Assembly (NCBI GenBank): GCA_001577635.1
Contig: LSBP01000007.1
Coordinates: 1 to 64,000 of the forward strand
Reading direction: 5' to 3'
From: Halomonadaceae bacterium T82-2
GTDB taxonomy: Bacteria; Pseudomonadota; Gammaproteobacteria; Pseudomonadales; Halomonadaceae
DNA: 64,000 bases
How positions within the stretch are numbered: position 1 is the first letter of the stretch; the number at the start of each line of letters is the position of its first letter. Shown here one piece after another: positions 35,700-40,740 of the stretch. The translations under genes were made by a program, and so were the position numbers. Below the pieces are notes generated by a model. It worked only from the letters and a program-made list of their open reading frames with translations. It had not been told where the DNA came from and did not search any database.

Positions 35700-36340
35700 C
35701 CCCTTTTCAAAAGGTAACAGGGCGGGCTCGGTCCTGCCTTGCAGTCTCGTCGCTGCGTCCTTCCTGGTCCTCGATCCTGTACAGCGATCAATCTGTCACA
35801 ACCTCGCGTTGGCCCCGAAGCACGCCGGGACGCTGGAGCGAGATCGTGCTCGATTTATCCTTGTAGCCTCAGTTCGCCAGGCTTCGATTTAACGTATTGT
35901 TTTCAATGGATATTATTGTGGAAGAGGCCGGTTGATGTTTGTTGGCTAATTTTTCTTAATTATATTATGGAATGTTTTTGATAAAAATTCGTACAAGATA
36001 ACATGGGTTAATTACCGGGACGCTCGCGCATGCGACATTGTGCGCGTCGACTCAGGGAGGGGTCGACACACGGTGCGCCATGACAGGTGACGGTCGCGTA
36101 GCCCGCGCACTCGGCATCTGGAACGTGCTGTCCAGGCCGGCTGCAACGCAGTTGGCGCCTCGGCTGTCATGTGTATCGAGTCGCAGTCTGGGTACGTTCC
36201 AGATGGCGAACGCCTCGACAGGGAGGTTTCGGGCAGGGACGCCCGATGACCAGGGATGGTCCGCTTGCGGGTCCAGGGCACGCGTCAACAGGAAGTTGTG
36301 ACTGCCAGGGAAGGGCCCGCTTCGACGCTTTGTCGGTTCG
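35700..36340. other. Gene-less region with AT-rich core and inverted repeat
   Basis: About 640 bases without a supported gene. A markedly AT-rich core (about 35870-36010, including TTTTTCTTAATTATATTATG) contrasts with the surrounding GC. To its right lies a perfect 12-bp inverted repeat (36115-36126, 36194-36205). Small ORFs here have no ribosome sites or recognisable products. It could hold a promoter/UTR for an unknown RNA or a decayed insertion. Confidence 0.45.
36115..36205. repeat. 12-bp perfect inverted repeat with a 67-base internal segment
   Basis: CATCTGGAACGT at 36115-36126 is the reverse complement of ACGTTCCAGATG at 36194-36205. The interior contains a smaller imperfect stem (GCCGGCTGC / GCAGTTGGC). 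It might be the base of a structured RNA or a remnant of a small mobile element. No transposase is present. Confidence 0.55.
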
Positions 36341-36382
36341 CGAGCCGGCGCCGCCTTCGGGGGGGGGGCGCCGGCTCGTTTC
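36341..36382. terminator. Strong hairpin with a G10 loop downstream of the Crp/Fnr gene
   Basis: CGAGCCGGCGCC (36341-36352) pairs perfectly with GGCGCCGGCTCG (36367-36378). The loop and right arm contain ten consecutive Gs (36359-36368). T-rich TTTCGTT follows on the plus strand. It sits just past the stop of the minus-strand regulator, so it probably ends that gene and/or plus-strand transcription from the gene-less region. Confidence 0.6.
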
Positions 36383-36401
36383 GTTGCGTGCTCGGCCGGT
36401 G

Positions 36402-37175
36402 CTACAGGTTCGGCGAAGCGGGCATTTCGCGACCGATGAAGGCCGGGTTGAGCGTGTCACTGAAGCGTTCGGGGCGGAAGTTGGCGATGCGGGCCAGTTC
36501 CTCGAAGTCGAGGATGTCGAGGCTCTGCCGCTGGCGAAGTACCAGGCGTCGTTCGGCAAGCTCCGACAGCGTGCGACTGACATGTACCTCGCTCATGCCC
36601 AGCAGCTGACTGAGGCGCCGTTGCGTCAGGGGCAGGGTGAAGCGGTTGCTGACCTCCATGCCGGCGCCTGCCAGCCGATGGTGGATCTCCAGGGCGAAAT
36701 GCGCGATGCGCGAGCAGGCATCATTGCCCAGTACGTTGACGAGGCGCTGGGTAATGTTGCGCTGCTGTCGCGCGGTCGCGGCCTGCAGGGCCATGGCCAC
36801 GCGCGGGGCTGCCTGGAAGAGACGATGGATGCCGGCAATCGGTATTGCGCGCACCATGCCGTCAGTCAGCATTTCCGCCGTGGTGTAATGGTTGGTGAAG
36901 GTGAAATCGAGCAGGCCCAGAACATCGCCGGGCAAGTGTAGATCGAGCACCTGCTCGGCATCGTCTTCGGAGCGATGCAGCGTGCACGCCCATCCCCGGT
37001 GCAGGGAGTACAGGTGGCGGGGCACTTCGTCCGGGTGCCAGAGCGTGTCGCCCCGGGCGACGGCGAACGGCTCGCTTTCCAGAGCCGACATGAGGTGGTG
37101 TTCGCGCTCCGTGAACGCAATATGTCGATCGAGATTCTGCATGACGTTTCGTACTGGTGAGGACACCGGCTCCAT
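36402..37175 (-). CDS. Crp/Fnr family transcriptional regulator
   Basis: 257 residues: N-terminal cyclic-nucleotide-binding-like beta roll (about 25-140, with LYSLHRGWACTLHRSEDDAE and LHLPGDVLGLLDF), a long dimerisation helix, and a C-terminal winged helix (about 170-235). The N-terminal cysteine cluster of oxygen-sensing FNR is absent, so iron-sulfur sensing is unlikely. The recognition helix reads MSEVHVSRTLSEL, keeping Ser-Arg but lacking the Glu that FNR and CRP use at the preceding position, so the DNA target probably differs. Start could be 37175 or 37142. Divergent from the carboxyspermidine genes. Ligand unknown. Confidence 0.87.
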   Translation of the reverse strand: MEPVSSPVRNVMQNLDRHIAFTEREHHLMSALESEPFAVARGDTLWHPDEVPRHLYSLHRGWACTLHRSEDDAEQVLDLHLPGDVLGLLDFTFTNHYTTAEMLTDGMVRAIPIAGIHRLFQAAPRVAMALQAATARQQRNITQRLVNVLGNDACSRIAHFALEIHHRLAGAGMEVSNRFTLPLTQRRLSQLLGMSEVHVSRTLSELAERRLVLRQRQSLDILDFEELARIANFRPERFSDTLNPAFIGREMPASPNL

Positions 37176-37631: not shown

Positions 37632-38831
37632 ATGAGCAAAGTCCTGATTATCGGCGCTGGTGGCGTCGGCGGTGTCGTCACTCACAAGTGTGCCCAGCAT
37701 CCCGAAGTGTTCAGCGAAATCTGCCTGGCCAGTCGCAACGAAGCGAAATGCAAGGCGATCGCCGCCCAGCTGGATCGCCCCATTCAGACCGCTCAGGTCG
37801 ATGCCGATGACGTCGAGGCGCTGGTCGCGCTGATCGAGTCGTTCACGCCGGACGTGCTGATTCACGTGGCCTTGCCCTATCAGGACCTGACCATCATGGA
37901 GGCCTGCCTGCGCACCGGCGTGCCCTATCTGGATACCGCCAACTACGAGCATCCGGACGAGGCCAAGTTCGAGTACAAGGAGCAGTGGGCCTTTCAGGAG
38001 CGCTACAAGAGCGCCGGCAACATGGCCACCCTGGGCTGCGGCTTCGATCCGGGCATGACCAACATCTACTGCGCCTACGCACAGAAGAACCTGTTCGACG
38101 AGATCCACACCATCGACATCCTCGATGCCAACGGCGGCGACCACGGCTATCCGTTCGCCACCAACTTCAACCCGGAGATCAACATTCGCGAGATCACCGC
38201 GAATGGCCGCTACTGGGAGAAGGGCGAGTGGAAGGTGACCGCGCCGCTGGCCGAGAAGCGCACCTTCGACTTCGACGGCATCGGCGAGAAAGACATCTAC
38301 CTGCTCTACCACGAGGAGCTCGAGTCGCTGTCGCAGAACATCAAGGGGCTGCAGCGCATCCGCTTCTGGATGACCTTCTCCGAGAAGTACCTCACCCACC
38401 TCAAGGTGCTCGAGAACGTCGGTATGACGAGCATCGAGCCGATCAAGGTGGGCGACAGCGAGATCTCGCCGCTGGAATTCCTCAAGGCGGTACTGCCCGA
38501 TCCGGCCTCGCTGGGCCCGCGCACCAAAGGCAAGACCAACATCGGCGTGATCGTCGATGGCATCAAGGACGGCAAGCGTCGCAAGGTGCACATCTACAAC
38601 ATCTGCGACCACCAGCAGTGCTACCAGGAAGTCCAGTCCCAGGCGATCTCCTACACCACCGGCGTGCCGGCGGTGACCGGTGCCATGCTGATGCTCGAGG
38701 GCGTCTGGAAGGGCGAGGGCGTGTTCAACGTCGAGCAGCTCGACCCGAACCCGTTCATGGAGCGTATCGGCGATATGGGGCTGCCGTGGCAGGTGGTCGA
38801 GCTCGACCCCGAAGCCGATCCGCTGGCCTGA
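37632..38831 (+). CDS. Carboxynorspermidine/carboxyspermidine dehydrogenase
   Basis: Saccharopine-dehydrogenase-like enzyme of 399 residues. It uses NADPH to condense aspartate semialdehyde with putrescine (or diaminopropane) into carboxyspermidine (or carboxynorspermidine). Rossmann motif IIGAGGVGGVVTHKCAQH is at residues 5-22; NMATLGCGFDPGMTNIYCAY is conserved in the family. The start at 37632 follows GGAAG and replaces the longer ORF. The next gene, 3 bases away, encodes the matching decarboxylase, which fixes the pathway. Putrescine versus diaminopropane cannot be decided from sequence. Confidence 0.9.
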   Translation: MSKVLIIGAGGVGGVVTHKCAQHPEVFSEICLASRNEAKCKAIAAQLDRPIQTAQVDADDVEALVALIESFTPDVLIHVALPYQDLTIMEACLRTGVPYLDTANYEHPDEAKFEYKEQWAFQERYKSAGNMATLGCGFDPGMTNIYCAYAQKNLFDEIHTIDILDANGGDHGYPFATNFNPEINIREITANGRYWEKGEWKVTAPLAEKRTFDFDGIGEKDIYLLYHEELESLSQNIKGLQRIRFWMTFSEKYLTHLKVLENVGMTSIEPIKVGDSEISPLEFLKAVLPDPASLGPRTKGKTNIGVIVDGIKDGKRRKVHIYNICDHQQCYQEVQSQAISYTTGVPAVTGAMLMLEGVWKGEGVFNVEQLDPNPFMERIGDMGLPWQVVELDPEADPLA

Positions 38832-38834
38832 TCG

Positions 38835-40001
38835 ATGGCGATGACGGACAACACGGGATACCCGTTCGATATCCATGCCTGCCCGTCGCCGGCCTACGTG
38901 GTCGACGACGCCCTGCTGCGCCGTAATCTGGAGTGCCTGAAGGCGGTTCAGGAGCGCAGCGGCGCGAAGGTCCTGCTGGCCCTCAAGGGCTTCGCCATGT
39001 GGGATACCTTCCCGCTGGTCAGCGAATACCTGGTGGGCACGACCTCCAGCGGCCAGGACGAGGCTCGCCTCGGCGCCGAGACTTTCGGCGGCGAGGTGCA
39101 TGTCTATTCGCCGGCCTTCACCGCGCCAGAAATGGACGTGGTGCTGCGCTATGCCGATCACCTGAGCTTCAACTCGCCGGGGCAGTGGCGGCGCTTCCGC
39201 GAGACCGTCGCGGCGGCGCCGCGACGCATCTCCTGCGGGTTACGGGTCAACCCCGAGCACTCCACGGGCGAGGTTGCGCTCTATGACCCCTGCGCGCCGG
39301 GTTCGAGGCTGGGTACGCGGGCGGCCGATCTCGAGCCGGGTGATATCGACGGTCTCGAGGGGCTGCACTTCCACACCCTGTGTGAGCAGAACAGCGACGC
39401 TCTGGAGGAAACCCTCGACGCCTTTGAAGCGAAGTTCGGGCAGTATCTGGCGGGCCTGCGTTGGGTCAACTTCGGGGGCGGTCATCACATCACCCGTGCC
39501 GACTACGATGTCGATCGGCTGGTGCGGATCATTCGTGACTTCAAGTCACGTCATCCGCATCTCGAGGTCTACCTCGAGCCGGGCGAGGCGGTGGCGTTGA
39601 ACACCGGCTTTCTGGTCGCCAGCGTGCTGGATATCGTCGACAACGATGGACCGATCGCCATCCTGGACACCTCCGCCACCGCGCACATGCCGGATGTACT
39701 GGAGATGCCGTACCGTCCGGAAATCATCGGTGCCGGGCGGCCCGGCGAAAAGCCGTACACGTATCGTCTAGGGGGCACCACCTGCCTGGCCGGCGACGTG
39801 ATCGGCGACTACTCGTTCGGCAAGCCGCTCGAGATTGGTGACCGCCTGGTGTTCACCGACATGGCCCACTACACCATGGTCAAGACCACCACCTTCAATG
39901 GCATTCGCCTGCCGGCGATCTGCCGGGTCGACGAGACCACCCGGGCGGTGCGTACGGTGCGGACCTTCGGCTACGTGGATTACATGCAGCGCCTGAGCTG
40001 A
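38835..40001 (+). CDS. nspC: Carboxynorspermidine/carboxyspermidine decarboxylase
   Basis: PLP-dependent, fold-III (alanine racemase-like barrel) decarboxylase of 388 residues that makes norspermidine or spermidine. The PLP lysine is in VLLALKGFAMWDTFP near residue 51. Also visible are LEGLHFHTLCEQN, VNFGGGHHITRADYD and EPGEAVALNTGFLV. Starts 3 bases after the dehydrogenase stop; ATG 38835 or 38841. A hairpin terminator follows. The pair provides spermidine without S-adenosylmethionine decarboxylase. Confidence 0.93.
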   Translation: MAMTDNTGYPFDIHACPSPAYVVDDALLRRNLECLKAVQERSGAKVLLALKGFAMWDTFPLVSEYLVGTTSSGQDEARLGAETFGGEVHVYSPAFTAPEMDVVLRYADHLSFNSPGQWRRFRETVAAAPRRISCGLRVNPEHSTGEVALYDPCAPGSRLGTRAADLEPGDIDGLEGLHFHTLCEQNSDALEETLDAFEAKFGQYLAGLRWVNFGGGHHITRADYDVDRLVRIIRDFKSRHPHLEVYLEPGEAVALNTGFLVASVLDIVDNDGPIAILDTSATAHMPDVLEMPYRPEIIGAGRPGEKPYTYRLGGTTCLAGDVIGDYSFGKPLEIGDRLVFTDMAHYTMVKTTTFNGIRLPAICRVDETTRAVRTVRTFGYVDYMQRLS

Positions 40002-40054: not shown

Positions 40055-40317
40055 TGTGTCGTGCCCGGTCGTTGTACCGGCCGAAGCCACCGTAGAGACT
40101 TTCCCTGTTCATCCCCGGACGCAAGGAACCGATGGCATGACTTCGAAGCGCCTGTTGCCACAGCCTCGGGCAGCTTCCGCCGTCAACGGCTCGCCGCGCC
40201 GAGTCGAGCGATGCCTGATCGATGGCGGTCGCCTCGGAAAAACGGCAACGTGTCCCCGCCGAGCTTGATACGGGTCATGTTTTCCATCGTGATTTTGGCC
40301 TAGCCTGAGATTGGCAC

Positions 40318-40439
40318 GACATCCATGGAAAGGAGCAGCAAGGGACGGCTTTACCAGGGATGCATCCGCAGGGGGCGGGTGGAAGAATGCGACAGGACAC
40401 AGCGCCATGCAGCCCGGCCGAGCGCCGGGCTTTTCTTTG
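40318..40439 (+). ncRNA. Candidate Csr/Rsm-type small RNA (GGA-rich, with intrinsic terminator)
   Basis: A canonical Rho-independent terminator (AGCCCGGC CGAGC GCCGGGCT then TTTCTTT, 40411-40437) ends a segment with no supported gene. The 90 bases before it hold six GGA triplets (40327, 40332, 40343, 40358, 40381, 40395), some in CsrA-like contexts such as CAGGGATG and GACAGGACAC. The implied RNA of about 120 bases has the size and GGA density of RsmY/RsmZ/CsrB-class RNAs that sequester CsrA. No TGTAAG-n6-CTTACA GacA box was found, and the promoter is weak (TAGCCT at about 40301), so the 5 end is approximate. A small mRNA leader is the main alternative. Confidence 0.4.
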
Positions 40440-40740
40440 TCGTTTCCCGTGGCCACGGTACTGACGGATTTGCGTACCATGGCCCTCCGGCTCAGTGCTG
40501 CACGTCTCCAGCCGTAGGAACCATAGGCCCTGTATTCGCCTGCTTCAGGCCCCTCCGGGCGTCGTCAGGGCGTTCATTCCGGCAACACCGCTTCTGCCTG
40601 TCTTCCTGACAGATAAACTTCCGACGTTTCCGCTCTTCTGCATGCCGTTATGCCTCGCCATGACCTCGGCGTTATTGCCGTTGACCCGGTCTCTATTGAG
40701 CTGGGTCAAGTCGCGGAATGAGGGTGATGGTACTATTTGG
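40440..40740. other. Intergenic region, nothing recognised
   Basis: About 300 bases between the candidate small RNA and the DoxDA promoter. Base composition becomes progressively more AT-rich to the right. The plus-strand ORFs crossing it (for example the one from 40325) run through the terminator at 40411 and lack ribosome sites, so I call no gene. Confidence 0.4.

Follow-up and report, generated by a model that had tools for sequence, protein, structure and literature searches.

Does the GGA-rich stretch at positions 40,318 to 40,439 of the window, that is, the whole 64 kb of DNA analysed, encode a small RNA that sequesters CsrA, as a first-pass annotation had proposed from the sequence? 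We addressed this question by recounting the motifs, searching for relatives, modelling their common structure and examining their promoters and neighbouring genes.

A GGA cluster followed by an intrinsic terminator

Recounting placed six GGA triplets at 40327, 40332, 40343, 40358, 40381 and 40395, spanning 71 bases (40327-40397), and a terminator scan found an 8-pair stem (40411-40431) followed by TTTTCTTTG, both as first described. The overlapping ORFs (40311-40517, 40325-40609 and, on the minus strand, 40109-40480) all read through the terminator at 40411-40438 and look spurious, in agreement with the initial statement that no ORF uses the terminator or stops before it. The argument from GGA density, however, held only in part: the cluster is real, but at least six GGA occurred in 11% of dinucleotide shuffles of 40318-40410 (P ~0.11). 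Only six GGA clusters of equal density were found on the two strands of the 64 kb window, and the RNA was only mildly stable when folded (z -1.4). In view of the shuffle probability and the fold score, the GGA cluster and terminator, although correct, are weak evidence by themselves. The Rfam covariance search that had been suggested as a check returned nothing relevant for the window at either gathering or relaxed thresholds. The features discussed here and below are collected in Table 1.

Table 1 Features of the window related to the putative sponge RNAs.
Feature	Position	Strand	Evidence
ATAACATGGGTTAA, family promoter palindrome preceding the second RNA candidate	35998..36011	+	
Second, longer sponge RNA candidate, ~350 nt	36035..36385	+	R2 19.7 bits, E 1.9e-4; fold z -4.45
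Crp/Fnr-family regulator gene	36402..37175	-	genes of this family adjoin many putative sponge copies
TTGATACGGGTCAT, Fnr-like site	40265..40278	+	8/10 of TTGAT-N4-ATCAA; ~-41 from predicted start
TAGCCT, candidate -10 element	40301..40306	+	predicted from alignment with relatives
Putative Csr/Rsm-type sponge sRNA gene, divergent copy	40305..40442	+	R1 60.9 bits, E 1.3e-15; R2 74 bits
Predicted transcript of this copy	~40313-40438	+	likely
Hairpin 2, AGC-AAGGGACG-GCT, GGA in loop	40337..40350	+	position in family alignment; helix 2 covaries
CCAGGGATG, linker CsrA-type site	40354..40362	+	CCA[AG]GGA near-invariant in family
Hairpin 3, CATCCGC-AGGGG-GCGGGTG	40363..40381	+	helix 3; compensatory changes in this copy
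CGACAGGACACAGCGCCA, fourth GGA site with conserved CAGCGC	40390..40407	+	alignment
Intrinsic terminator	40411..40438	+	terminator scan; helix 4, 98% paired in family

The locus belongs to a multicopy RNA family

DNA searches identified related intergenic sequences in the genus at ~70-74% identity. All of them had a GCCCGGCC-type terminator at their end, and in most the right half of a GacA box (e.g. GATCTCTTACA) preceded the GGA region by ~100 nt. A covariance model, R1, was built from five of these relatives only, leaving out the copy in the window (hereafter the window copy). R1 matched the window copy over its full length with 60.9 bits. The other R1 places in the T82-2 genome were at C6, C41, C20 and, weakly, C1, and only one place scored above the window copy. 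Because the five relatives had originally been found by similarity to the window, this test is not wholly independent; the genome-wide ranking by R1 is nevertheless informative. The family model R2 likewise matched the window copy in sequence and structure over its full length. These data support the assignment of the window copy as a divergent member of a multicopy family of putative CsrA-sponge RNAs, and it is this homology that decides the original proposal, which was right in kind.

Matches to R1 at E up to 1 occurred in 122 of 151 genomes of Halomonadaceae, the weak ones including matches to the terminator only; outside Halomonadaceae, only weak matches of 26-40 bits were obtained. When the relatives were compared with the Rfam Csr/Rsm clan, RsmY was the most frequent match, with a best score of 35 bits against a gathering score of 57. 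For RsmY (RF00195), RsmX (RF02144) and RsmZ (RF00166), the window gave no match and the tested relatives stayed below the gathering threshold.

Family structure and divergence of the window copy

Alignment of 53 members revealed an architecture of four helices, namely a 5' hairpin, a GAGC-loop-GCTC hairpin, a CACGGGC-AGGAT-GCCTGTG hairpin and the terminator. The four helices were paired in 92% of the alignment cells, a percentage favoured by the fitting of the alignment to the model's structure, and helix 3 was paired in 99% across the 53 sequences. Both sides had changed in 24 of the 26 pairs, none of 500 shuffles reached any of the pairing measures, and pairing was at most 49% when the partners were slid by one column or more. 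The family RNAs contained an average of 3.1 GGA hairpin loops versus 0.67 in shuffles, which bears out the expectation that the GGA sites would be conserved in loops among relatives, and the CCA[AG]GGA linker was nearly invariant. As modelled, this anatomy is that of CsrA-binding RNAs.

The window copy has kept part of this architecture. Fold prediction left the GGA at 40343, in the loop of hairpin 2, mostly unpaired and that at 40395, in the fourth site, unpaired. The linker CCAGGGATG is paired in the minimum-energy fold, in which CATCC pairs with the GGATG site and the GGA at 40358 is occluded. The stem of hairpin 3 (CATCCGC/GCGGGTG) has been preserved through compensatory changes; its loop reads AGGGG where the family has AGGA, with loss of the loop GGA, and hairpin 1 at the 5' end is lost altogether. 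Hence, the window copy carries six GGA but a single GGA hairpin loop in the predicted fold, versus three to five in each of the four other T82-2 copies, and is the weakest among the clear members in that genome. With hairpin 1 and the hairpin 3 GGA gone and only one GGA loop predicted, the window copy would represent either a sponge of reduced strength or a duplicate in decay.

The nspC neighbourhood of the named relatives was searched and held no sRNA. Genome G002 shares the window locus but differs by one base over ~4.5 kb, so that the comparison is useless as a test of selection. Purifying selection on the window copy was therefore not demonstrable.

Promoter elements and Gac regulators

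The T82-2 genome encodes one csrA and a UvrY/SirA/GacA equivalog (285.6 bits; cutoff 280). Scored against the GacA-box consensus TGTAAG-N6-CTTACA (14 positions), the region upstream of the window copy gave a best match of 8/14, the same as shuffled sequence, confirming the earlier remark that a GacA box is absent there. Among 99 sampled copies of the family, a box of at least 11/14 was present upstream of 49% (0.3% in shuffles); most of these boxes precede the match by 65-70 or 86-88 nt. A second element, TAACC-NN-GGTTA, agreed in 8 or more of its 10 letters at 70% of the sampled copies (3% in shuffles), for the most part 39-40 nt before the match. Written as TTAAC-N4-GTTAA, this family promoter element has the layout of a Crp/Fnr-family site, and relative to the start predicted on the basis of the -10 element it would be placed near -41. 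In the window copy its place is occupied by TTGATACGGGTCAT; this Fnr-like site is only a lead, since such patterns are frequent in the window (33 matches vs 7.7 expected).

By pattern, three GacA boxes were detected in the T82-2 genome, none of which precedes the five family copies. At L040 (minus strand, G000:C33 near 129247), the region between fdxA and eno contains a GacA box and, downstream of it, a GGA-rich stretch and a terminator; mutS lies on the far side of fdxA. This locus beside fdxA presumably resembles the rsmZ neighbourhood of Pseudomonas, and its GGA-rich RNA candidate had no Rfam match. Two further GacA-box matches, L039 (G000:C25:41979) and L041 (G000:C41:5567), were without a clear GGA-rich RNA downstream and may control ordinary genes.

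A probable weak sponge and the alternatives

We consider it probable that the window copy is a ~125-nt sponge of the Csr/Rsm class that would titrate CsrA and that represents a divergent duplicate in a multicopy family. If transcribed, an RNA of this RsmX/RsmY-like architecture would bind CsrA dimers through exposed A(N)GGA motifs and draw CsrA off its mRNA targets. As a duplicate without the 5' GGA hairpin, the hairpin 3 GGA and the GacA box, it should bind less CsrA owing to the first two losses and should be controlled apart from Gac owing to the third; a Crp/Fnr-type regulator may control it instead via the Fnr-like site at about -41.

The loss of hairpin 1 and of the hairpin 3 GGA, together with the missing GacA box, would also fit a decaying copy, i.e., a genuine member by ancestry that has ceased to be a useful sponge, within a set of duplicates at different stages of loss. 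Its single predicted GGA loop beside the richer folds of the other four T82-2 copies and the lack of a syntenic copy among the named relatives point in the same direction. However, compensatory changes have preserved the hairpin 3 stem, and neither the terminator nor the six GGA have been lost; we regard decay as rather unlikely. The disappearance of CsrA sites while stems and terminator stay could alternatively reflect a family member that has switched from CsrA titration to base-pairing with mRNAs, but several GGA sites are kept in the window copy, which makes such a switch very improbable. Finally, a GGA count that is not rare for the composition (P 0.11) and an empty Rfam search are what would be expected of a chance GGA cluster whose terminator belongs elsewhere, e.g., to the end of an nspC transcript. 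The full-length covariance-model match (E 1e-15), with alignment through all conserved elements, rules out chance and mRNA-end readings of the cluster and terminator, leaving them practically no credence.

Amplification of the family in Halomonadaceae

Copies were counted with R2 by scoring 150 candidates per genome at E up to 1e-5 and removing overlaps; a 275-genome scan, which saturates at 11 candidates per genome, was left out of these counts. The T82-2 genome has 5 copies and G002 has 7, and the counts rise to 11 in the single-contig genome G220, 12 in G144, 14 in G009, 15 in G001 and 17 in the draft genome G004. Multiple GGA loops together with a GacA-box score of 10/14 or better characterise most of the copies in G004 and G220. 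In the 275-genome scan, some genomes within the same genus lacked a copy at threshold. The family is thus strongly amplified in Halomonadaceae (Halomonas relatives).

Local clusters of three to five copies in a few kb were observed at L336 (G009:C30), L337 (G144:C32) and L299 (G220 near 1.41 Mb). At L118/L277, L135 and L273, two overlapping model matches fall in one locus; these putative sponge RNAs, 230-280 nt long, appear to be compound or to have arisen by partial duplication.

Comparison with known CsrA-sponge RNAs

The Halomonadaceae family resembles RsmY/RsmX of Pseudomonas in size (~120-150 nt), in having GGA in hairpin loops and linkers, in its terminator and, in many copies, in an upstream GacA box, and by analogy we infer that it works like them. 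It differs from RsmY/RsmX in its far higher copy number and its extra TTAAC-N4-GTTAA promoter element. RsmZ (RF00166) works alike, and L003 matched it weakly at 21 bits, far below the family threshold. The CsrB/CsrC RNAs of enterobacteria and vibrios, which are longer than the Halomonadaceae RNAs, would have CsrA titration in common with them and are there under BarA/UvrY (VarS/VarA). csrB usually occurs in two to three copies, with a maximum of four in V. tasmaniensis, whose csrB1 indicates that a sponge duplicate can leave BarA/UvrY (VarS/VarA) control (PMC6262261). RsmV and RsmW of P. aeruginosa are CsrA/RsmA sponges independent of GacA (PMC7366521); they have been characterised as restricted to the species and independent in origin, and are set beside the present family by description. 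Multicopy sponges occur in P. syringae (RsmX1-5 plus Y and Z) and in Azotobacter, with nine sponge RNAs, RsmZ1-7 and RsmY1-2 (PMC7366521). In comparison with Azotobacter, the Halomonadaceae family reaches 17 copies in a genome; these are dispersed and frequently adjoin Crp/Fnr genes.

Crp/Fnr genes beside putative sponge copies

Genes with a Crp-type HTH domain (PF13545) lay within 2 kb of 21 of 94 sRNA loci from 12 whole genomes (1.0 expected), nine genomes contributing to the 21; the nominal P of ~1e-20 is overstated because orthologous loci are not independent. A smaller first test (3/20 loci vs 0/20 shifted controls) was not significant. Crp/Fnr genes adjoin copies at, e.g., L076, L056 and L227, and three neighbouring Crp/Fnr genes are divergent from the sRNA and encode proteins that share ~43% identity with the product of the window's Crp/Fnr gene.

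The interest of the locus lies in the family, with its copy number, two promoter elements and neighbourhood. A wider reading, which we put forward tentatively as somewhat short of an even chance, is that the Csr system of Halomonas and relatives has been rebuilt around strongly amplified sponges whose copies are wired separately to GacA (boxes ~65 or 88 nt upstream) and to adjacent Crp/Fnr regulators (TTAAC-N4-GTTAA near -41). If so, CsrA activity would reflect the combined effect of numerous sponges under different control, with the window copy as a Gac-independent arm of the network, and modules of a Crp/Fnr gene plus a sponge RNA may offer a route by which CsrA could respond to additional signals. 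Given the use of Halomonas strains in biotechnology, a titration network of such size would be both testable and useful. In addition to occurring in unusually many copies for an RNA that titrates a protein, the family would provide a searchable model for a gap left in a review, where the CsrA-sponge RNAs of Halomonas anticariensis are given as 'unknown' (PMC7366521).

The window itself holds a second, longer RNA candidate (36035-36385) with the GGA hairpins GTCGAC-TCAGGGAGGG-GTCGAC, CGGGC-AGGGAC-GCCCG, GACC-AGGGAT-GGTC and CAAC-AGGAA-GTTG; its predicted fold has four GGA hairpin loops. It ends in a long GC-rich terminator, and its 3' end adjoins the Crp/Fnr gene. Of the two RNAs in the window, it is the better sponge candidate and would probably sequester CsrA more strongly. 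Between the Crp/Fnr gene and the RNA at 40,305 sit genes for a carboxynorspermidine synthase-like protein and the decarboxylase nspC (37635-40001), which belong to the norspermidine pathway.
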